Assembly: GCA_026693085.1 (NCBI GenBank)
Contig: JAPLNB010000325.1
Span: 1 to 64,000 of the forward strand
Reading direction: 5' to 3'
DNA length: 64,000 bases
Origin: Planctomycetota bacterium
GTDB taxonomy: Bacteria > Planctomycetota > Phycisphaerae > Tepidisphaerales > Tepidisphaeraceae
The notes beneath the pieces were generated by a model. The model did not search any database, had not been told where the DNA came from, and worked only from the letters and a program-made list of their open reading frames with translations. The translations under genes were made by a program, and so were the position numbers. This document shows, in pieces, positions 12,410-38,298 of this stretch. Numbering within the stretch: position 1 is the stretch's first letter; every line of letters starts with the position of its first letter.

Positions 12410-13219
12410 TCAGAAGGGGTTGATGAAGTCCAATAATTTCGGGATCAGGCCTCGTTTGGTGGTGTCGTTGACGGCGCCCTTGTGCGTCGTCTCGATTTCC
12501 AGGTTGTAAACCTGGGTGCTCAGGACGGTGTTGTCGAGCGTGAGATCGGCGGCGCGGCAAATGCCGGTCAGCACGTAATCGGCCTCTTCCTCGTCGTGCT
12601 TGATGTGCTTGCGGGCCTGGACAACAAAGGTTCCATTGGGCTTGACGTCCAAGACCTCGGCGGCGATCCGGGTGACAAAGGAGTCGGTGCGGTCCACCTT
12701 CGCTTCACCCTTGAAATTGCGGCTGGCGCTGGCCTTGGCGCTGGGCGGGTTGGCGCCCTGTGCGCCACCCTTGATGGCGAAGTTGCTGGGGTCAAGCTTG
12801 ATCCATTCCTGCAGGCCGGCATCCAGATCCGCGCTTTTTTTCAGCTCGGTGTTGGCGTCGGAGGTGTACTCGCTTTCCTCGCGGATGATGATGGTGATCA
12901 GGTCGTGCTTCTGCACCACCTTCGGCTCGGGGTCGGGAACGGCCACGAAGCTAACGGCCATGAGGCGTGCCTTGATCGGGTCGGCCTTGGCGGACTCGGC
13001 TCTGGCGTTGATGGGGATGGTGCTGAGGCTGGCCTTGGCGAGTGATCCACCATGTCGGGCCCTCTCGGCCCCAATGGAGAATCCTTCGCCGGTCGCACCG
13101 CGCGCGGGCGATTGGGATGCGGATGGATTTCCCGAAGGCGGATACCCCGGGTTCTGGGCTAGGGTCCAGCCACAGCACAACGCGCACACAACCCCCGTGA
13201 TGCTCGCAAAACGGACCAC
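12410..13219 (-). CDS. flgH: Flagellar L-ring protein FlgH
   Basis: A 269-residue outer-membrane ring protein. It begins with a signal peptide (CALCCGWTLAQ). The family core is HDLITIIIREESEYTSDANTELKKSADLDAGL and the end contains VLTGICRAADLTLDNTVLSTQVYNLEIE. Most FlgH proteins are lipoproteins; no canonical lipobox is clear here. The start is a GTG with GGAG 6 nt upstream. Presence of FlgH with FlgI indicates that the motor crosses an outer membrane. Confidence 0.93.
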   Translation of the reverse strand: MVRFASITGVVCALCCGWTLAQNPGYPPSGNPSASQSPARGATGEGFSIGAERARHGGSLAKASLSTIPINARAESAKADPIKARLMAVSFVAVPDPEPKVVQKHDLITIIIREESEYTSDANTELKKSADLDAGLQEWIKLDPSNFAIKGGAQGANPPSAKASASRNFKGEAKVDRTDSFVTRIAAEVLDVKPNGTFVVQARKHIKHDEEEADYVLTGICRAADLTLDNTVLSTQVYNLEIETTHKGAVNDTTKRGLIPKLLDFINPF

Positions 13220-13344
13220 AACTCACTCCATCTGCGACTGCGGGCTGCTCCACCCTGGGTTACCACAGAGGCCTCCGGCCAATGCGAATGTACTGCTCGA
13301 CAACATGAATGCCAGGCCTTCCAGGCTCAGGCTGCTTTTTTTTG

Positions 13345-14583
13345 CTACGGCGCGACCGCCAACCTGGCCACGGATTGCTCACCGGGAGCCCCGATCAGCT
13401 TCGCCTGCTGCGGCCCGGTGAGAACCACGGTGAACTCGTCGCGCGTGCCAGGTTTTCGCACGCGAATCGACTGACCCAGGCACCCGGTTTCGCGGGCTTC
13501 GCCGACCCAGATCACATGCACCCGACCCAGCTCGACGGCCACGGTGATCAACTGCCCGATTCTCGCCAGTTGTACCGCCTCGATCATCCTGCCAGTAAGC
13601 ACCGCCCCAGGTCCGAGGTCGCGGCCGGCCTGCTGGCCAACGACCTGCTCCTTGGTCAGAGTCACGTCATCGCTGAGCCGATCGACCAAGATGCGGCGAT
13701 CGGTGAGGTCGTCATCATGGATGATCTGCTTGTACGCCAGGGGCCTTGCGGTGGTCACCTGGTTTTGCCACATTCGCACATTGGCGGTGATCGGAACCTT
13801 CTGCTTGGCGTGAGCGGCACAGATGGTGACGCTCCAGGTGACGTCGCCCAGCCGGCGGAGCTTTTGTGGCTCGACATCAAACTGAAAAAGCGGCTCCGCG
13901 AGGCTGACCAGCTTGTCGTCCGCATTGCTGAACCGGATCTGAAGCGACTCAGCCGGCACATTAAGCCGGTCAACCAAGTCGGCAACCAGGATATCGCGCA
14001 ACGACCGCACCGACTTTGATGGGACTTCTGTCTGCACCTGGTGCGGCGGTATGAACAGAGGCATGCCGATCGCCATAGGCCGCGTGGTCGGCCGGGACAC
14101 CTGGGCCGCGGTAATCGCCTGGGCAAGCTCCGCATCCAGACGGGTATCGCTTCGCGCCACCTTGCAGGATATCGCCCCCTGAAAGTTGATCAGCGCAAGG
14201 TTCACACCCGCGTCCTCGAGGGTGCTCTTGAGGCTTTCGATGTCGATGGTGCGGGCGGTCTGGTTCCGCTCAAAGCGTGAGACAACCAGGTCGGCGTTCT
14301 GCCGCATCGCCGCGGCATCGGCATCTGACCAGCGGGCAATCTGCTTGAGGCGGATTTCCGACCCTGCGATGGTCGCATCGCTTCGCAGCTCAACAGCCGC
14401 GACCGCAGCAAAACTCACCGAAGGCAGAAACTTTTCTTCAGAGAGAACGGGGGAATCCGCGCGCTGGATATCCGCTGCAAAGCCCCACTGACTGACCAGG
14501 GTGTGGGTCGCCCACGCCAAGAGGGTTAGGATGATCAATCCTTGTATTAGCCTGCGTGTCTCAGCCGGGCGGCGTCCAAACAT
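13345..14583 (-). CDS. flgA: Flagellar P-ring assembly protein FlgA, long form
   Basis: Periplasmic P-ring chaperone of 412 residues, nearly twice the E. coli length (219). The N-terminus has a single membrane/signal helix (about 12-30). The C-terminal SAF/FlgA part includes GPGAVLTGRMIEAVQLARIGQLITV and GCLGQSIRVRKPGTRDEF. The middle (about 50-260) is extra and appears to hold an additional copy-like domain. GGAGG with 6-nt spacing sets the start at 14583 rather than the upstream ATG at 14601. It lies between flgG and flgH. Confidence 0.88.
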   Translation of the reverse strand: MFGRRPAETRRLIQGLIILTLLAWATHTLVSQWGFAADIQRADSPVLSEEKFLPSVSFAAVAAVELRSDATIAGSEIRLKQIARWSDADAAAMRQNADLVVSRFERNQTARTIDIESLKSTLEDAGVNLALINFQGAISCKVARSDTRLDAELAQAITAAQVSRPTTRPMAIGMPLFIPPHQVQTEVPSKSVRSLRDILVADLVDRLNVPAESLQIRFSNADDKLVSLAEPLFQFDVEPQKLRRLGDVTWSVTICAAHAKQKVPITANVRMWQNQVTTARPLAYKQIIHDDDLTDRRILVDRLSDDVTLTKEQVVGQQAGRDLGPGAVLTGRMIEAVQLARIGQLITVAVELGRVHVIWVGEARETGCLGQSIRVRKPGTRDEFTVVLTGPQQAKLIGAPGEQSVARLAVAP

Positions 14584-14631
14584 CTGTGACCTCCATGTCA
14601 CTCAGGGGTCAATGTTGCAATCGCTCTTGAA

Positions 14632-15435
14632 TTAGAACCGTCTCAAGTTGCCGATGGTCTGCAGCGCCTGGTCGGCGGTCTGGATCGACTGGCTGTTCAA
14701 CTCAAACGCTCGCTGGGTCTTAATCAGCGCCACCAGTTCCTTGACCGGATCGACGTTGCTGCCCTCAAGGACGTTCTGCAGAATGACCCCCGACCCATTT
14801 TCCGATGGCAGCGATTCGATCGGGTCGCCGGACGCTGTCGTCTGGATATAGATGCTGCCGCCGAGCAGTTTCAGCCCCTGGGGGTTGACAAACTGGTTGA
14901 GCTTCAGTTGCCCAGCGGTGGACTTGGTCCCGCCCTTGGTGTATTCGATGAGTCCGGCCTGGCTGATGCTGATCTCGATCGCGTCTTTGGGAAGGGTGAC
15001 GGGGGGAACAAGCTTGTAGCCATCGCCCATTCCCAGCACGATCTCGCCGTTCTTGTTCTGGAAGAAATTGCCGTTACGGGTATAGCCGTAGCCGTCCCCG
15101 ACCGAGTCCATGATTTTGACTTTGAAGAAGCCGTTGCCCTGGATGCCGACGTCGAGCGGCCGACCGGTGTTTTCCGGGCTTCCCGGTTCAAGGTCGAGCT
15201 GGGTGTTGCTGATCCGCACACCCAGACCCACAAACGTACCCGACGGCGAAATATCGCCGGCGCTGTTCGTGGCGCCCGGCTCCCTCATCGTCAGATACAT
15301 CAGGTCCTCGAAATTGACCCGGCTGCGTTTGAACGCGGTGGTCTCGGCGTTGGCGAGGTTGTTGGCGATGACGTCGATTCGGGTGGACAACGCCCGCAGC
15401 CCCGTCGCCGCCGAATTGAGTGCCGTGATTGCCAT
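14632..15435 (-). CDS. flgG: Flagellar distal rod protein FlgG
   Basis: A 267-residue distal rod protein of usual size. The rod signature ALSTRIDVIANNLANAETTAFKRSRV lies at the N-terminus, the middle has YGYTRNGNFFQNKNGEIV, and the C-terminal helix is VKELVALIKTQRAFELNSQSIQTADQ. The start is the ATG at 15435 (MAITALNSAATG), which aligns with other FlgG proteins; the upstream extension reads through a heptanucleotide repeat. It follows flgF after a 77-bp gap. Confidence 0.95.
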   Translation of the reverse strand: MAITALNSAATGLRALSTRIDVIANNLANAETTAFKRSRVNFEDLMYLTMREPGATNSAGDISPSGTFVGLGVRISNTQLDLEPGSPENTGRPLDVGIQGNGFFKVKIMDSVGDGYGYTRNGNFFQNKNGEIVLGMGDGYKLVPPVTLPKDAIEISISQAGLIEYTKGGTKSTAGQLKLNQFVNPQGLKLLGGSIYIQTTASGDPIESLPSENGSGVILQNVLEGSNVDPVKELVALIKTQRAFELNSQSIQTADQALQTIGNLRRF

Positions 15436-15506
15436 AGTTGGTAGTTGCCAGTTGGTAGTTGTGAGTTGCCGGCTGCCGGCTGCTTCACTGGCAACTGGCA
15501 ACTGGC
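15436..15506. repeat. Heptanucleotide repeat array between flgF and flgG
   Basis: Seven tandem 7-mers run from 15436 to 15484 (AGTTGGT, AGTTGCC, AGTTGGT, AGTTGTG, AGTTGCC, GGCTGCC, GGCTGCT). One base later three more 7-mers follow in the opposite sense at 15486-15506 (CACTGGC, AACTGGC, AACTGGC). The two arms pair: GTTGCCAGT at 15444-15452 matches ACTGGCAAC at 15487-15495, so a hairpin can form in the flgF-flgG mRNA. Confidence 0.8.
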
Positions 15507-15512
15507 CACTAC

Positions 15513-16097
15513 TTATCCGATCTTGCCCACGTCGTTGACAAGGCGTCCCAGAGTCTGGTCCTGGTAGCGGATGAGATTCGCATTGGCTTCGAGCTGCCGC
15601 TGCGCATCGAGCAGCGCCGTCAACTCGTTCGTAGGCTCGGCGTTGCTGCGTTCAACAAACCCGCTGCGCAGCACCCCATCGGCGGGGCGCAGGGGCTTGG
15701 TCTGGGCGTACGCGAACATGGCATCGCCGCGCTTGGTGAGTTTCGCGTCCTGGGGCACATCGAATAGCCCCACCCTCGCCACCACCTGCCCGTTCTGGTT
15801 GACGGCGCCATCTCGCTCGATGGATGATACCCCGCCGGGCGGCAGCTTGATGGGGCTGCCTTTGTCGTCGAGAACCATCTGAACCTTGATGCCCCCGCCG
15901 ATCCCCTCCAACACCCGATTGCTATACATGGCCGGGCTGAGACCTCGGAGCCTCGCCTCGGTCCGCTGTTCCTGAAACACCGCCAGGTCGCGTTTAAAGC
16001 CAACGGTTTCCGCATTGGCCAAGTTGTTGGCAATGACGTCCTGCCGATAGGAATTGGCAAGGACGCCCGTGGCCGAGAGGTACAGGCCGTAGATCAT
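15513..16097 (-). CDS. flgF: FlgF-type flagellar basal-body rod protein (short)
   Basis: A 194-residue rod protein of the FlgE/F/G family. It has the N-terminal signature GLYLSATGVLANSYRQDVIANNLANAETVGFK and the C-terminal SNAEPTNELTALLDAQRQLEANANLI. It is shorter than FlgF (about 250) because the central D1 region is reduced. The start at 16097 overlaps the stop of the preceding small gene in an ATGA, so the two are coupled. FlgF is the best match by position before flgG. Confidence 0.88.
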   Translation of the reverse strand: MIYGLYLSATGVLANSYRQDVIANNLANAETVGFKRDLAVFQEQRTEARLRGLSPAMYSNRVLEGIGGGIKVQMVLDDKGSPIKLPPGGVSSIERDGAVNQNGQVVARVGLFDVPQDAKLTKRGDAMFAYAQTKPLRPADGVLRSGFVERSNAEPTNELTALLDAQRQLEANANLIRYQDQTLGRLVNDVGKIG

Positions 16098-31573: not shown

Positions 31574-32689
31574 TCAGGCGGAGGTGACCTTGTGGATGGC
31601 CGCCATGAGGTTGGCCTGGGTCACCGGCTTGAACAAAGCCGGCTGGCCGGTGGAATTCAGGAAGTTGTTGGTCATCGCCCAGAGCGCATCGCCCGTCAGG
31701 AACACAACGGTTTTCTTCAGATGCTTGGGCAAGCGTTCGTAAAGCTCTTGGCCGGAGATGCCGGGCATACGCAGGTCCAGGACCACGGCGTCGAATTGTT
31801 CGCGTTCGAGCAGTTGCAGCGCGACCCCCCCCGACGCACAGGTGCGGACACTGCCGCCACACATGCTCTTGAGCATCAACTGGAGCACTTTTCGGATCGG
31901 TTCCTCATCATCGACAACGAGAATCCGGCAGCCCTTCAGGGCCGATCTTGCGACGATGGACGGGACAATGGGGTCTTGTGCAACCGGCTTTGCGATCGGG
32001 AGGGCGAGTGTGAAGAGCACGCCGCCATTGGTGTTGCGGGCCGACAGGGTCCCGCCCGCGCGCTCGGTCAGACGCCGGGCGACGGCCAACCCCAACCCGC
32101 TCCCCTTGCCGCGGGCCTTGGTGGTGAAAAAAGGATTGAAAATCTTGGGAAGAAGCTGTCTTGGGATAGCCGGCCCCGAATTCCAGACGCCGAGCCTGAG
32201 GACACGGGCGACGGGTACGGCAGTGATCCGGATCGTTGCCGACGGGCATTCGGCGACGGCATCCATGGCATTCTTGATGATATTCGCGAGGATCAACTGC
32301 AAGTGTCCAGTCGGCATGGCAACGGTGGGGAGCGTCGCGGCAGCCGACCACTCGAATTCCACTCCTTTGCGAGTCCGATAAGAATAGAGGTCCAGAACCG
32401 CTCGCACAGCTTCGTCGACGACTCCCTGAGTCGATGCGACCGGGCTAGCGAAATAGAGCACGTTCATCGACAATTGGCTGGCAAGTTGGGCAAGCTGGAC
32501 GACATATGCCAGATGCCGCCGCGACTCTGGCCTGGATTGCTGTTGTATTTCCAGCTCGGCGTAGCCGATGGCCGCTCCCATGAGGTTATTTAATTCGTGA
32601 GCGACCTCCGCAAACATCTCGCCAAGAATAGCCAGACGTTCTAGTTGAGCGGATTCCCGTTCCGATGCTGGTCGCAAGCGTTTGCCCAT
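31574..32689 (-). CDS. Cytoplasmic histidine kinase with C-terminal receiver
   Basis: A 371-residue hybrid kinase without membrane segments. The H-box is VAHELNNLMGAAIGY (about 28-45), the N-box LANIIKNAMDAV, the G1 position WNSGPAIP has Asn where DxG is usual, then FNPFFTTK and GSGLGLAVARR. A C-terminal receiver (about 252-371) has ILVVDDEEPIRK, VVLDLRMPG, VFLTGDA and LFKPV. It is divergent from the phc-like cluster (168-bp gap), so it may belong to the same pathway. The altered G1 Asp could lower ATP binding. Confidence 0.88.
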   Translation of the reverse strand: MGKRLRPASERESAQLERLAILGEMFAEVAHELNNLMGAAIGYAELEIQQQSRPESRRHLAYVVQLAQLASQLSMNVLYFASPVASTQGVVDEAVRAVLDLYSYRTRKGVEFEWSAAATLPTVAMPTGHLQLILANIIKNAMDAVAECPSATIRITAVPVARVLRLGVWNSGPAIPRQLLPKIFNPFFTTKARGKGSGLGLAVARRLTERAGGTLSARNTNGGVLFTLALPIAKPVAQDPIVPSIVARSALKGCRILVVDDEEPIRKVLQLMLKSMCGGSVRTCASGGVALQLLEREQFDAVVLDLRMPGISGQELYERLPKHLKKTVVFLTGDALWAMTNNFLNSTGQPALFKPVTQANLMAAIHKVTSA

Positions 32690-32856: not shown

Positions 32857-34263
32857 TTGGAACGCTCAACTGTTGGGTTTGACAGTGTTATTGCATTCCG
32901 CAACAGCCAGAACCTTGAGGCTCGCGGCACGCTGATCCACGTTACGCGCAACGTCGTCGTCTTCGAGGTCTACAACCCTTATTCCGTCGTGCAGCTTAGC
33001 GAAGTGCTGCACGATCTTCGGATCATGCGCGGAGAGCGGGTGATCTACTCCGGCCGGGCGGTTGTCAGCAGCATCGTGGCCACGGGCGTGATGCTAATCG
33101 TTTCGGCGACCCTGGTGGACCCGTGGTCGGACTTGGCGGGAGTGGCACCGGGGCGCGCGTTGACCGAAGAGGTCCGCGGCTTCGTGCGCGACTGGGAAAC
33201 GAGTTTTCGCATCAGGCCCAGCTATCAACTGGTCGTCGGCAGCATCGCGGGCTTTTTCGCCGAGCTGAACCGATGGCTCAACCATGCGGAGGCCGCCGGC
33301 GCCTCCGGCGACTCGCTGTCCCTGCAGGAGGAGCTGGCGCTGTCGGTGGAAGCGGGTCTCACGGACAAGCTTGGGTCGTTGTTCGGGACATTTGAAGCCG
33401 AAGCCGCCCAGGTGGCTCCGGAGGAAGCTGAAAGCCACAAGGCCTTTGCTCGCCGGCAAATGCACCCGCTGATGCTGGTTTCTCCGTTCATCCACCGCAC
33501 GTTCACCAAGCCACTGGGGTACGCGGGGGATTATGAGATGGTGAACATGATTGTGCGTAGCCCCCTGGAAGGCCCCAACACGTACGCGCGTGTCCTGAAT
33601 GCCGCCATCCTCCGCTCGAAAGGCGCCCAGGCCCACCGCAACCGGATCGACCGGCTGGTTCATTACCTCAAGACGGAAGCTCGCCGGGTCACCGCAATGA
33701 ACCGGCCTCTGCGCGTGCTGAACATCGGGTGCGGGCCGGCGGTCGAAGTGCAACAATTCGTGCGTTCCGATTCGCTGTCGGACGACTGTGAACTGCACCT
33801 GATGGACTTCAACCGCGAAACGCTCGCGTATGCGCGCCAAAGACTGGTCGAGGCCTCCCGTGAGAGTGGACACAGCCCGGCGATCATCTACCACCACAAG
33901 TCGGTCAACGAGCTTCTGAAAGAGGCCTCCCGCGAAGCGCTCGGGCAGGGCACGATCCCCTTCGTCACCGCCGACCTGGTCTACTGCGCCGGATTATTTG
34001 ACTACCTCTCGGACCGCATATGCAAGCGACTGCTGCAGTTGTTCAGCAGTTGGACCCGCCCGGGCGGACTGGTTGTGGCCACAAACGTCCACCCGCGTAA
34101 CGACGTGAGGTACTTTCTTGAGCACGTGCTGGAATGGAACCTGATCTACCGCGATGAGAAGCAGATGGAAGAACTGGCTCCCGACGGAGGGACCAAGACC
34201 GTGAACAGCGAATCCACCGGGATGAACGTTTTCCTGGAGATCCGTAAACCCGAAACGAGATAG
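32857..34263 (+). CDS. PhcB-like SAM methyltransferase (3-hydroxypalmitate methyl ester synthase family)
   Basis: A 468-residue protein. The N-terminal ~85 residues resemble a PilZ-like beta barrel (ARGTLIHVTRNVVVFEVYNP, then GVMLIVSATLV). A helical middle contains RQMHPLMLVSPFIHRTFTKP. The C-terminal methyltransferase (about 278-465) has motif I LRVLNIGCGPAVEVQQF and LHLMDFNRETLAYAR. This architecture is that annotated as extracellular factor 3-hydroxypalmitate methyl ester biosynthesis, PhcB in Ralstonia. The start is a TTG at 32857, no ATG fits. Next genes are a membrane sensor kinase and a receiver/kinase, the order of phcBSR. Confidence 0.8.
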   Translation: MERSTVGFDSVIAFRNSQNLEARGTLIHVTRNVVVFEVYNPYSVVQLSEVLHDLRIMRGERVIYSGRAVVSSIVATGVMLIVSATLVDPWSDLAGVAPGRALTEEVRGFVRDWETSFRIRPSYQLVVGSIAGFFAELNRWLNHAEAAGASGDSLSLQEELALSVEAGLTDKLGSLFGTFEAEAAQVAPEEAESHKAFARRQMHPLMLVSPFIHRTFTKPLGYAGDYEMVNMIVRSPLEGPNTYARVLNAAILRSKGAQAHRNRIDRLVHYLKTEARRVTAMNRPLRVLNIGCGPAVEVQQFVRSDSLSDDCELHLMDFNRETLAYARQRLVEASRESGHSPAIIYHHKSVNELLKEASREALGQGTIPFVTADLVYCAGLFDYLSDRICKRLLQLFSSWTRPGGLVVATNVHPRNDVRYFLEHVLEWNLIYRDEKQMEELAPDGGTKTVNSESTGMNVFLEIRKPETR

Positions 34264-34292
34264 CCGATCGTTTCGCAAACGATGCCGAGAAG

Positions 34293-36989
34293 ATGACGGA
34301 TACGAACTCCATCCCGATGCAGGGGTTGCAGGGGCACCTGCTCAGCAAGGCCTACCACGAGGCGGACTGCGACTTCCGCGTGCAGCAGGCCAAGGTGGGG
34401 TGCATCCTCGTGCTGATCTGCATGCCGCTGGGGACGGCCTTGGACTGGTTTGTCTATCCTCAGCTTCTGTGGCCTGTGCTCATCAGTCGCCTGCTTTGCG
34501 ATCTGGCTGTGGCGCCGATCTTCGTTCTTCTGTTCACGCAATGGGGCCGGCGGCTGATCGGCCTGTGGGGTTTTCTCTGGCCGTTGCTGCCCGCGGCGTG
34601 CATTTCCTGGATGATCTACGCCTCGCAAGGCACGGCATCCCCGTACTATGCGGGCCTCAACCTCGTGCTGATCGTCGCCTGCCAGCTCATGCCGTACACC
34701 CTTGCCGAAGCCCTGGGCGTGTGCTCGGCAACACTGTTGAGCTACCTGGTGGCCTGCGGGGCGCATGGGTCTGCCGCGGTTGGCGAATCAACCAGCGGCA
34801 TCCTGTTCAACAACGTTTATTTCATCGGCCTGACGACGTTGATCTGCGTCACCTCCTGCCACTTCACCACCCGCCGGCGAATGCAGGAGTTCAGGCTCCG
34901 CCGCGAAGTGGGCCTGCGGAACAAGCAACTGGCCGAGTCCTACGAGCAGCTTGCGCAGCTCGACAAGCTCAAGGGCCAGTTTTTTGCCAACATCAGCCAC
35001 GAACTTCGCACGCCCCTGACGCTGATTCTCTCGCCCGTCGAGGAACTGCTCCGGTGCCGAAACCGGCTTCCGGCCCAGAGCGTGGAAGCTTTGGAGATCG
35101 TCCGGCAGAACGCCTTGCGATTGCTCAAGCTCATTACCGATCTCCTGGAGATCATTCGGCTCGAGGAAGGGCGCAGCAACCTCAGACGCCAGCCGATGAA
35201 CCTCAGCCAGTTCGTGCCGGCGATGCTGGATTCGGTGCGGCATCTGGCCAAGGCAAAGCGACTGACCCTCAACGTTCAGGGCGCGGACGGCCTGATCGTC
35301 AACGGCGATCCGGAGCGGCTCGAGAAGGTCGTTCTCAATATTCTGACGAACGCCATCAAATTCACACCGGCCGGCGGCAGCATCACCACCGCCTGGTGGC
35401 AGGGCAATGCCCGCGCCGTCGTCGAGTTCAGGGACTCTGGGGTCGGCATCACCAGCCAAGACCTGCCCTTCATTTTTGACCGTTTCCGCCAAGCGGATGG
35501 TTCGTCAACCCGGAAGTACCAGGGCATGGGCATCGGCCTCGCTCTGGCGAAGGATCTGGTTCGCGAGCACGACGGCAGCCTCACCGCCAGGAGCGAAGTC
35601 GGCAAGGGCACGACGCTGCGATTGGAATTGCCCCTGACCACGGAAAGGGTCGCCGAACCGGCCGAGGGAACACAGGCTTGCACCGACGAAGATCCTATCG
35701 CGCGCATGTACTACGACGCAGACCGCACGGTCAATGTGGCCACTGAACAGTCCCCCGAAAGCCTGGCTTCAGTTGGCAGCGGCAAGTTAAGCGTCCTGGT
35801 CGTCGACGACGAGGCGGACATGCGGCGGTTTCTGGTTTCGATCCTCGCGCCCGACTATCGAGTCCTGCAGGCCGCCGACGGCAAAGCCGGTTTGGATATG
35901 ATCCGGCAGCACAAGCCCCATCTGGTCCTTCTGGACCTCATGCTCCCGATCATGGACGGGCTGGACGTGTGCCAGAGCATCAAAAGCGACGAGCAGACTC
36001 GCAACATCAAGGTTCTCCTGCTCACCGCCCGCACCGACGAGCACTCGAAGATCACGGCTCTCCAGCGTGGCGCCGATGACTTCCTCACGAAGCCTTTCAG
36101 CACCACCGAGGTTCGCACGCGCCTGGCCAATCTGCTTCAGAATGCCAAGCTCGAGGAAGATCTGCGGCAGCAGAACGTCCAGCTCGAGCAGACGCTCCGG
36201 CGTTTGAAGGAAACGGAAGTCCAACTGGTCCAGAGCGAGAAGATGAACGCTCTCGGCAAGCTCGCTTCGGGCCTGCTGCATGAGATCCACAACCCGCTCA
36301 ACTTCACTCTCATGGCGATTCAGGTGGCCAGGCAATCGGTTGGCAGCGATGCGGAACTCACGGAAACGCTCGACGACATCGGGCACGGCATGAACCGGAT
36401 CAAGGACATCATTTCCGACCTCCGCGCGTTCGCCTACCCATCGAGCGAGAAGATGCAGGAGCGTTTCACGCTCGATGAGGCCATCACCACGTCGTTGCGG
36501 CTGGTCTCCCACGAGACCGACAACATACAGATTACCCGCCATGGCACCGGCGGCCTGATCGCGGTCGGTTCAAAGACGCAGGTCGTACAGGTCCTGCTGA
36601 ACCTCGTGATGAACGCAGCGCAGGCATTGCGCGCGGTACGGTCAATCCGCCAGCCCCAGATAGCCATCTCGGCCGAGATCCGGTTGCAGCGTCTGCAGGT
36701 ATGCGTCCGGGACAACGGCACCGGCGTCCGCGCAGCCGATCTTCCGCGGCTCTTCGAGCCGTTTTTCACAACCAAAGAAGTCGGCCAAGGCATGGGCCTC
36801 GGCCTCAGTGTGTGTCATACGATCGTTAAGCACCACGGGGGCACAATCGTCGTCCACAGCCAAGAGGGGCAATGGACCGAAGTCTCTTTCGATCTGCCAC
36901 TGGATGATCGGTCGAGCATCTCATCTGCTGGGCGCGCAAGCGATAGACCTGCGTGTATGTCGTCCAGTTCAGAACCAGGAGCGACATGA
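34293..36989 (+). CDS. PhcS-like membrane hybrid histidine kinase
   Basis: An 898-residue sensor. About six membrane helices (about 33-190) with no large periplasmic loop suggest a lipophilic ligand. Then come HisKA (NISHELRTPLTL, H236), an HATPase, a receiver (about 495-612: VLVVDDEADMRRF, VLLDLMLPIMDG, LTKPFS), and a second kinase core (GLLHEIHNPLNF, about 660, with FEPFFTTKEVGQGMGLGLS). PhcS in Ralstonia senses 3-hydroxypalmitate methyl ester; the extra receiver and kinase make this protein longer. It starts 29 bp after the methyltransferase and overlaps the next gene in ATGA. Confidence 0.88.
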   Translation: MTDTNSIPMQGLQGHLLSKAYHEADCDFRVQQAKVGCILVLICMPLGTALDWFVYPQLLWPVLISRLLCDLAVAPIFVLLFTQWGRRLIGLWGFLWPLLPAACISWMIYASQGTASPYYAGLNLVLIVACQLMPYTLAEALGVCSATLLSYLVACGAHGSAAVGESTSGILFNNVYFIGLTTLICVTSCHFTTRRRMQEFRLRREVGLRNKQLAESYEQLAQLDKLKGQFFANISHELRTPLTLILSPVEELLRCRNRLPAQSVEALEIVRQNALRLLKLITDLLEIIRLEEGRSNLRRQPMNLSQFVPAMLDSVRHLAKAKRLTLNVQGADGLIVNGDPERLEKVVLNILTNAIKFTPAGGSITTAWWQGNARAVVEFRDSGVGITSQDLPFIFDRFRQADGSSTRKYQGMGIGLALAKDLVREHDGSLTARSEVGKGTTLRLELPLTTERVAEPAEGTQACTDEDPIARMYYDADRTVNVATEQSPESLASVGSGKLSVLVVDDEADMRRFLVSILAPDYRVLQAADGKAGLDMIRQHKPHLVLLDLMLPIMDGLDVCQSIKSDEQTRNIKVLLLTARTDEHSKITALQRGADDFLTKPFSTTEVRTRLANLLQNAKLEEDLRQQNVQLEQTLRRLKETEVQLVQSEKMNALGKLASGLLHEIHNPLNFTLMAIQVARQSVGSDAELTETLDDIGHGMNRIKDIISDLRAFAYPSSEKMQERFTLDEAITTSLRLVSHETDNIQITRHGTGGLIAVGSKTQVVQVLLNLVMNAAQALRAVRSIRQPQIAISAEIRLQRLQVCVRDNGTGVRAADLPRLFEPFFTTKEVGQGMGLGLSVCHTIVKHHGGTIVVHSQEGQWTEVSFDLPLDDRSSISSAGRASDRPACMSSSSEPGAT

Positions 36990-38245
36990 CTATGAGCACC
37001 GGTTATGATTATCGTAAATTCTCCATTCTCTTCGTCGATGATGAGGAGCAGGCGCTGAAGTACTTCGCCAAGACCTACGAGAAGGATTTCCGAGTCCTGA
37101 CCGCGCCAAGCGTGCCCGACGCACAAACGATTATCAACCGTGAAGGCGACCGCATCGGCGTCGTCATCACCGACCAGCGAATGCCCGGCAAGACGGGCGT
37201 CGACCTGCTCGGGGAACTTCGGCGGACCCACGCCTCCATCATCCGCATCCTCACCACCGCGTATTCCGACATCGACAGCGCCATCGACGCCGTCAACTCC
37301 GGCGCCATCTACAAGTACATCGTCAAGCCCTGGAACCTGCGCGACCTTCGCGGCATCCTGCTGCGGTCGATGGAGTTTTTTCTCGTGCAACGTGAGCGCG
37401 ACATGCTTCTCCGCCAGAAACTCCACGTCATCCAAAGGCTGGTCATCACCGACCGTGTCCGCAGCCTCGCTGCCCTGGCCGCCGGCCTCTCCCATCACAT
37501 CCGCAACTCGATGATGGCTTTGAAGAGCTTCCTGGACATGGCGCCCATGAAACTCCAGGAGGAACTGCCCGCCGGAACCACCAAGAGCCCCGAGTTTTGG
37601 GAAGATCTCTGGGGGCTGGCGCAGCGCGAAAGCCAGCAGATTCTCGAGATGGTCCAGAAAGTCGCCGAGACGGTCGTCACACCCAGCTACACCTTCGCCG
37701 ACGAAATCGACCTCGGCCAGCTCATCCGCAGCGGCGTTGATCGGGGCGCCAGCCAGGCCGGCCATCAAAATCAAACCGTCATCGAGCTGGCGTCCGGGCT
37801 GCCTCGGGTCAAGGTCGATGCGAATATGGCCAAACGCCTCTTCACCATCCTCACCGAACGAACCATCGGCCTGAACCGTTTCGGCGGCACCATCGTCGTC
37901 CGCGCCAAGGCGCCTGTCCCCATCTGGGACACCGAGGGCATACAGATCGTTTTTTCCGGCGAAGGGCCCGCATGGACAGACGAAGACGCCGCATCGCTTT
38001 TCACGGCCTTCGCGCCCTCCCGCCAGGATCCTCGCGAGCTCGGCCTCGACCTGCTGTCGGCTTTCTTCATCGCCTACCACCACGGCGGCGAAATCAACGT
38101 TCACAAATCCGCCCCCCTCGGCCCCGGCTTTGAGCTGATTCTGCCCTTCAGCCCCGACGCTGTTCAACGCCCCGACATGCACGTCGGCTTCCTCGAGAAA
38201 CTCTTCCTCCGCTTCGACGCCATGGGCGGCGACAACTTCATGTAA
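36986..38245 (+). CDS. PhcR/PhcQ-like receiver with a kinase-like output
   Basis: A 419-residue protein. The receiver (about 10-130) has ILFVDDEEQALKYF, VVITDQRMPGKTG and YIVKPWN. The output part has an H-box-like LAAGLSHHIRNSMMALKSFL (about 168) and a weak HATPase whose end reads LDLLSAFFIAYHHGGEI. Such a receiver joined to a degenerate kinase domain is the layout of PhcR/PhcQ. AGGAG and an ATGA overlap couple it to the sensor gene. A strong terminator follows, so the three genes form one operon. Confidence 0.85.
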   Translation: MTMSTGYDYRKFSILFVDDEEQALKYFAKTYEKDFRVLTAPSVPDAQTIINREGDRIGVVITDQRMPGKTGVDLLGELRRTHASIIRILTTAYSDIDSAIDAVNSGAIYKYIVKPWNLRDLRGILLRSMEFFLVQRERDMLLRQKLHVIQRLVITDRVRSLAALAAGLSHHIRNSMMALKSFLDMAPMKLQEELPAGTTKSPEFWEDLWGLAQRESQQILEMVQKVAETVVTPSYTFADEIDLGQLIRSGVDRGASQAGHQNQTVIELASGLPRVKVDANMAKRLFTILTERTIGLNRFGGTIVVRAKAPVPIWDTEGIQIVFSGEGPAWTDEDAASLFTAFAPSRQDPRELGLDLLSAFFIAYHHGGEINVHKSAPLGPGFELILPFSPDAVQRPDMHVGFLEKLFLRFDAMGGDNFM

Positions 38246-38270
38246 CCGCCTTCATGCTCTTGCGCAACCC

Positions 38271-38298
38271 AAAGCCCCGGATGCACATCCGGGGCTTT
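38271..38298 (+). terminator. Strong terminator of the phc-like operon (repeated palindrome)
   Basis: AAAGCCCCGGATG pairs perfectly with CATCCGGGGCTTT, a 13-bp stem around a CA, followed by TC. It is symmetrical and may end the convergent PQQ-type gene too. The 22-bp core recurs exactly at 49301-49322. Confidence 0.85.

Follow-up and report, generated by a model that had tools for sequence, protein, structure and literature searches.

A probable Phc-type signalling operon with a hybrid PhcS in a planctomycete-type bacterium

Quorum sensing through fatty-acid methyl esters is tied to the phc genes, which serve cell-to-cell signalling in bacterial wilt, and the question raised by this locus is whether such signalling also occurs in a planctomycete-type bacterium, where the initial annotation had read three coupled genes as phcB-phcS-phcR. 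To our knowledge, no bacterium of the planctomycete phylum is known to signal with a fatty-acid methyl ester, and no paper linking PhcB with planctomycetes was found among those consulted. A survey of Proteobacteria placed the phc cluster in Betaproteobacteria only (PMC10653808).

Organization of the operon

The window analyzed here, a stretch of DNA of 64,000 nucleotides, sits in contig 325 (71,340 bases) of a genome of 6.2 Mb in 384 contigs. Three co-directional genes lie on its plus strand, exactly where the initial annotation had placed them. The predicted features, with the evidence for each, are as follows:

32857..34263, plus strand: gene 1, PhcB-type SAM-dependent methyltransferase, 468 aa (similarity, reciprocal match, tree, AF2 model)
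34293..36989, plus strand: gene 2, hybrid PhcS comprising six-helix sensor, HK1, receiver and HK2, 898 aa (domains, profiles, tree)
34293..34982, plus strand: six-helix PhcS-type sensor and linker of gene 2, aa 1-230 (match to PhcS only, profile, AF2 model)
34944..35639, plus strand: inserted kinase core HK1 of gene 2, ~aa 218-449, His236, all motifs intact (domains, motifs)
35787..36128, plus strand: inserted receiver of gene 2, ~aa 499-612, Asp548 (domains, motifs; own clade in the receiver tree)
36210..36902, plus strand: PhcS kinase core HK2 of gene 2, ~aa 640-870, His663 (identity, profile, tree)
36986..38245, plus strand: gene 3, 419 aa, receiver protein of the PhcQ type whose kinase-like C-terminal domain is degenerate (receiver clade, alignment, motif loss)
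38271..38298, no strand assigned: intrinsic terminator hairpin with a 12-bp perfect stem, a 4-nt loop and T residues after it (folding against shuffles)

The best guess for the start of gene 1 is the TTG at 32857; its stop is at 34263, and genes 1 and 2 are spaced by 29 nt. Gene 3 most likely starts at the ATG at 36986, which overlaps the gene 2 stop by 4 nt (ATGA); the GTG at 36953 is disfavoured. The hairpin (-21.5 kcal/mol, z -4.2, with no shuffle equally good) separates the operon from a convergent PQQ-repeat gene. With its co-directional order beginning B-S, the ATGA overlap and the shared terminator, the locus is organized as expected of a Phc operon. The coupling of the three genes and the single strong terminator that had been proposed are thus both borne out, the former also by its retention in ten genomes, far beyond chance.

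Pfam identified a weak SAM methyltransferase match in gene 1, a HisKA-HATPase, a receiver and a second HisKA-HATPase in gene 2, and a receiver with a weak HisKA in gene 3. Among the NCBIfam models listed for the three proteins, none scored above its own cut-off. Divergent from the operon, and having a 167-bp upstream region in common with it, a soluble kinase-receiver hybrid of 371 aa is encoded at 31574-32689 on the minus strand; its position beside the operon is not conserved in most relatives.

Assignment of the three genes to Phc families

The reference set was obtained by a scan of genome contigs, which yielded 80 beta-proteobacterial relatives of gene 1 from Paraburkholderia, Cupriavidus, Janthinobacterium, Nitrotoga and others. 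Most of these have four genes, encoding a methyltransferase of ~465 aa, a single-core kinase of ~445 aa, a receiver plus kinase of ~375 aa and a receiver protein of ~335 aa, which is the published phcBSRQ layout (PMC8578825, PMC6989110); phc operons have been reported in Cupriavidus (PMC2842291, PMC2864759) and in B. xenovorans LB400 (PMC3639386). Ralstonia-type operons (L148-L150) were recognized not by genome name but through three published landmarks, namely an LqsR-type receiver gene immediately 5' of phcB (PMC10653808), a nearby LysR gene adjoining fur (PMC2864759), and a phospho-accepting histidine of PhcS at exactly residue 230 (PMC11960443). In the Paraburkholderia group that contains LB400 (L053:10757-11155, L044, L060), the PhcR position is occupied by a lone receiver of ~133 aa without the kinase part.

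Gene 1 is 45% identical to PhcB of a Ralstonia-type genome over its full length (457 aa, E 3e-138). As a query it retrieved a single gene per genome in six out of six beta-proteobacterial genomes, and the reverse search with Cupriavidus PhcB retrieved exactly one gene in the window genome, namely gene 1, which is the single reciprocal match between the window genome and the beta-proteobacterial genomes. Against 399 Pseudomonadota genomes, seven matches exceeded 400 bits and all others were at or below 70 bits. In the methyltransferase tree, ten planctomycete sequences adjoin the beta-proteobacterial PhcB clade, far from other methyltransferases; the long outgroup branches mean that the root is not safe. 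Clustering with unrelated SAM enzymes, an outcome that would have refuted the initial reading, is excluded by the reciprocal match and by this place beside the PhcB clade. On these sequence comparisons, gene 1 is a PhcB ortholog. The position of PhcB R22, one of the published functional residues (PMC11960443, PMC6989110), is matched in the alignment with gene 1; R22 is not retained in the relatives from genus g102.

In the AF2 model of gene 1 (pLDDT 82), an N-terminal six-stranded barrel is followed by a helical middle part and a Rossmann methyltransferase. Sequence comparison found no solved structure for gene 1, and a fold search with the C-terminal part returned ordinary Rossmann methyltransferases (best 3ocj), adding no specificity. 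The description of the N-terminus as PilZ-like found no sequence support and was rejected: Pfam detected no PilZ in gene 1 even at E 10, the PilZ motifs RxxxR and [DN]xSxxG are absent from the N-terminus, and a profile comparison with five PilZ proteins of the window genome gave no match, leaving the predicted six-stranded barrel as the only point of agreement.

The first 205 residues of gene 2 alone match PhcS in seven out of seven beta-proteobacterial genomes (E 1e-20 to 1e-25), the only other match in these genomes being at E 0.67, so that the sensor helices do not fall into a non-PhcS or LqsS family as a refutation would have required. The AF2 model of the sensor contains six long transmembrane-type helices (pLDDT 90), which are only ~25-35% identical to those of PhcS; the loop pattern SWMIYxxxGxxSPYYxGLNL of PhcS is retained in the sensor. 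A single profile alignment joins the sensor and HK2 to PhcS (E 3e-141), with HK1 and the receiver as an insertion; compared piecewise with PhcS, the sensor gave E 6e-46, HK2 9e-82 and HK1 only 2e-30. HK2 is 44% identical to the kinase core of PhcS from a Ralstonia-type genome and groups with PhcS kinases in the kinase tree (support 98), PhcR kinases forming a separate clade (100), and its His663 aligns with His230 of Ralstonia PhcS (published as H230, PMC11960443). The catalytic motifs are intact in HK1, the inserted receiver and HK2, whereas the beta-proteobacterial PhcS proteins of the set, at 440-464 aa, all lack the insertion. Gene 2 is accordingly a PhcS whose sensor and kinase core are separated by an inserted HK1-receiver module. 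The six-helix hybrid sensor with an inner receiver and a second kinase core that had been described at the outset is thus confirmed, by the AF2 helices and PhcS-specific matches on the one hand and by domain search and intact motifs on the other. A PhcS-PhcR fusion, with the receiver and HK2 representing PhcR, was also considered and rejected on the placement of HK2 in the kinase tree. In a fold search the sensor weakly resembled membrane domains of ImcA and of adenylyl cyclases (best E 1e-3), which also have six helices; this added no specificity.

The reading of the third gene as phcR did not hold. In the receiver tree, the gene 3 receiver falls with PhcQ (support 99), separate from PhcR, and gene 3 and PhcQ have the stretches TDQRMP, ILTTAYS, YIxKPW and RERDxLLREKL in common. 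Gene 3 also retains the arginine equivalent to PhcQ R154, mutation of which has a known phenotype (PMC6989110). Its C-terminal part is kinase-like (profile E 7e-14 to HK2) and is probably a dead kinase, judging from the N box and G1 box, which are gone in eight out of eight sequences, and from the histidine, which is lost in five of the eight. Of the PhcQ tail, only the first ~90 residues align with the gene 3 tail (E 3e-7). PhcR was rejected as an identity for gene 3 by the receiver tree, the alignment and the loss of kinase motifs, and these data identify gene 3 as a PhcQ-type receiver protein with a tail that is probably a dead kinase. The initially proposed order therefore stands, through orthology, for phcB and phcS only, and the proposed receiver with a kinase-like output is right in architecture, its tail having lost the ATP-binding motifs. 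No gene was found to occupy the phcR position, nor is gene 3 followed by a fourth one, a result that concerns the operon only and not the rest of the genome. Orthology of the three predicted proteins to Phc proteins is regarded as close to certain.

Distribution in planctomycetes and comparison with known systems

The full-length gene 1 family was found in seven of 246 genomes sampled across the phylum and in four of 298 genomes in the class (the window genome included in both), the carriers amounting to ten genomes in four family-level groups. A hybrid kinase with HK1-receiver lies downstream of gene 1 in all ten, two of the contigs ending within it, and gene 3 is present in all eight carriers whose contigs continue past the hybrid kinase. 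Conservation of this layout across ten genomes and four family-level groups argues against both chance and contamination. Neighbouring genes are in common only among three genomes of one genus, and no output gene conserved beside the operon across families was found. That the carriers' phylum is Planctomycetota is an inference, based on repeated SBP_bac_10 (DUF1559) genes, which were detected in 40 of 41 genomes searched (the window genome and relatives) and in none of 14 controls, and on the impression recorded in the initial annotation.

The absence of a PhcA-type LysR regulator, also proposed initially, was corroborated, no PhcA ortholog being detected at E 1e-10 in the window genome. At the same threshold none was found in four of the five relatives tested, the fifth having one remote LysR match (24%). 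C. necator has a clear PhcA ortholog (76% identical), and the best LysR match in LB400 is only 29-30% identical, meaning that LB400 is without a PhcA ortholog.

The planctomycete operon resembles phcBSRQ of Ralstonia, Cupriavidus and Paraburkholderia in its PhcB ortholog, its PhcS sensor with an H230-type core, its PhcQ-type receiver and its gene order within one operon. It differs in the HK1-receiver within PhcS, the kinase-like tail of PhcQ, the absence of a PhcR gene and of PhcA, and the phylum. Because PhcR and PhcA were not found, the operon as a whole is not a canonical Phc system; PhcB, PhcS and PhcQ are family members. An autoinducer synthase beside a multi-helix sensor kinase is also characteristic of the Lqs/Cqs systems (LqsS, CqsS), but there the synthase is a PLP enzyme, whereas the planctomycete synthase is a SAM methyltransferase. 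The genus Cupriavidus is reported to carry lqs as well (PMC10653808), and in Cupriavidus genomes PhcS is the only kinase that the gene 2 sensor matches with a meaningful E-value. The phcBSRQ operons of Paraburkholderia likewise occur without a PhcA ortholog, as in P. xenovorans LB400 and in B. phytofirmans PsJN, which has phcBSRQ without phcA (PMC3639386), but unlike the planctomycete operon they encode a PhcS with one kinase core and have phcR as a gene of its own, which in LB400 specifies a lone receiver.

Inferred signalling and alternative explanations

The three genes probably form a phcB - hybrid phcS - phcQ operon for Phc-type signalling in a planctomycete-type bacterium, with its chemistry and density response inferred. 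In such a system, the PhcB-type enzyme of gene 1 would methylate a (3-hydroxy) fatty acid to give a diffusible methyl ester, which would be detected by the six-helix membrane sensor of gene 2. Phosphate would then pass from HK1 to the internal receiver, and/or from HK2 (His663) to the gene 3 receiver (Asp63). Gene 3 lacks a DNA-binding domain and would therefore exert its effect by contacting another protein, as does PhcQ of Ralstonia, which binds and stabilizes PhcA (PMC13320629); no PhcA ortholog having been found, its partner must be a different one. Against this explanation, neither a gene at the phcR position nor PhcA was found, leaving the known pathway without its downstream half; the loss of R22 in the g102 relatives and the lack of any known use of this signal in the phylum also count against it. 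A Phc system would be expected to make 3-OH PAME or 3-OH MAME and to respond to cell density through phosphorylation of PhcS. A fatty-acid methyl ester is the likely, though inferred, product, and the acyl substrate may differ at 45% identity. Cupriavidus metallidurans CH34 has all five phc genes and yet may make a variant of 3-OH PAME (PMC2864759).

This last case bears on an explanation that we consider unlikely, in which the same orthologous operon and logic serve another methylated lipid or carboxylate suited to planctomycete metabolism. The moderate identity of the enzyme leaves room for a changed pocket, and the sensor helices have diverged further from PhcS; against this, enzyme and sensor occur together in ten out of ten genomes and the kept PhcS loop pattern suggests a related ligand. 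Considerably less probable is a function outside quorum sensing, with gene 2 sensing membrane-lipid or fatty-acid stress and the methyltransferase modifying or marking an intracellular lipid. Such a function would fit the absence of PhcA and of an output gene conserved beside the operon across families, but synthase and sensor are both orthologous to a proven autoinducer pair, and Paraburkholderia also has phcBSRQ without phcA (PMC3639386).

It is very improbable that the operon was recently acquired from a Burkholderiales genome or is contamination from one. Although phc operons are common in Burkholderiales, one being on a Paraburkholderia plasmid, the identity is only 45%, the HK1-REC insertion is seen only in the planctomycete phylum, and the nearest relatives are all from the same phylum and group by host family; an ancient transfer, whichever its direction, is still possible. 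Hardly any weight remains for the idea that an ordinary methyltransferase, a hybrid kinase and a receiver protein are encoded side by side by chance and merely resemble phc. Two-component genes abound in bacteria with genomes of this size and an unrelated hybrid kinase lies directly upstream (31574-32689), but the reciprocal matches, the clade membership and the operon kept in ten genomes refute this idea.

With a Phc-type operon as the preferred explanation, these orthologies suggest that fatty-acid methyl ester signalling extends beyond the beta-proteobacteria, and a PhcB-PhcS-PhcQ operon in another phylum points to a candidate signal molecule that can be searched for directly by LC-MS. More tentatively, and with somewhat less than even confidence, planctomycetes may use fatty-acid methyl ester quorum sensing with an internal kinase-receiver relay in PhcS and with PhcQ as the sole soluble output, whose target would be some regulator different from PhcA. 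The soluble partner kept is PhcQ and not PhcR, in agreement with genetics in which PhcQ is more important than PhcR (PMC8578825). PhcQ may be the ancient core output, with PhcR and PhcA as later beta-proteobacterial additions, the root of the trees not being fixed. The poorly understood tail of Ralstonia PhcQ now also has a recognizably kinase-like counterpart.

Several further observations concern related loci. At L201:6736-10200, a PhcB-like sequence ends an open frame of 1155 aa and is perhaps fused there to an N-terminal part of 690 aa that has no Pfam match. In another genome of the phylum, a distant methyltransferase (26%) occurs near a hybrid kinase (L042:8263-10161 and 12777-15536); over 872 aa this kinase shares 29% identity with gene 2, and the locus may represent a more remote related system. 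In genus g102, genes of the epimerase family and of the esterase/alpha-beta hydrolase type lie just upstream of the methyltransferase (L033:6232-8073), and a 288-aa protein without a Pfam family is encoded after gene 3, overlapping its end (L033:13423-14286, L034, L035), making it a candidate extra member of the operon.
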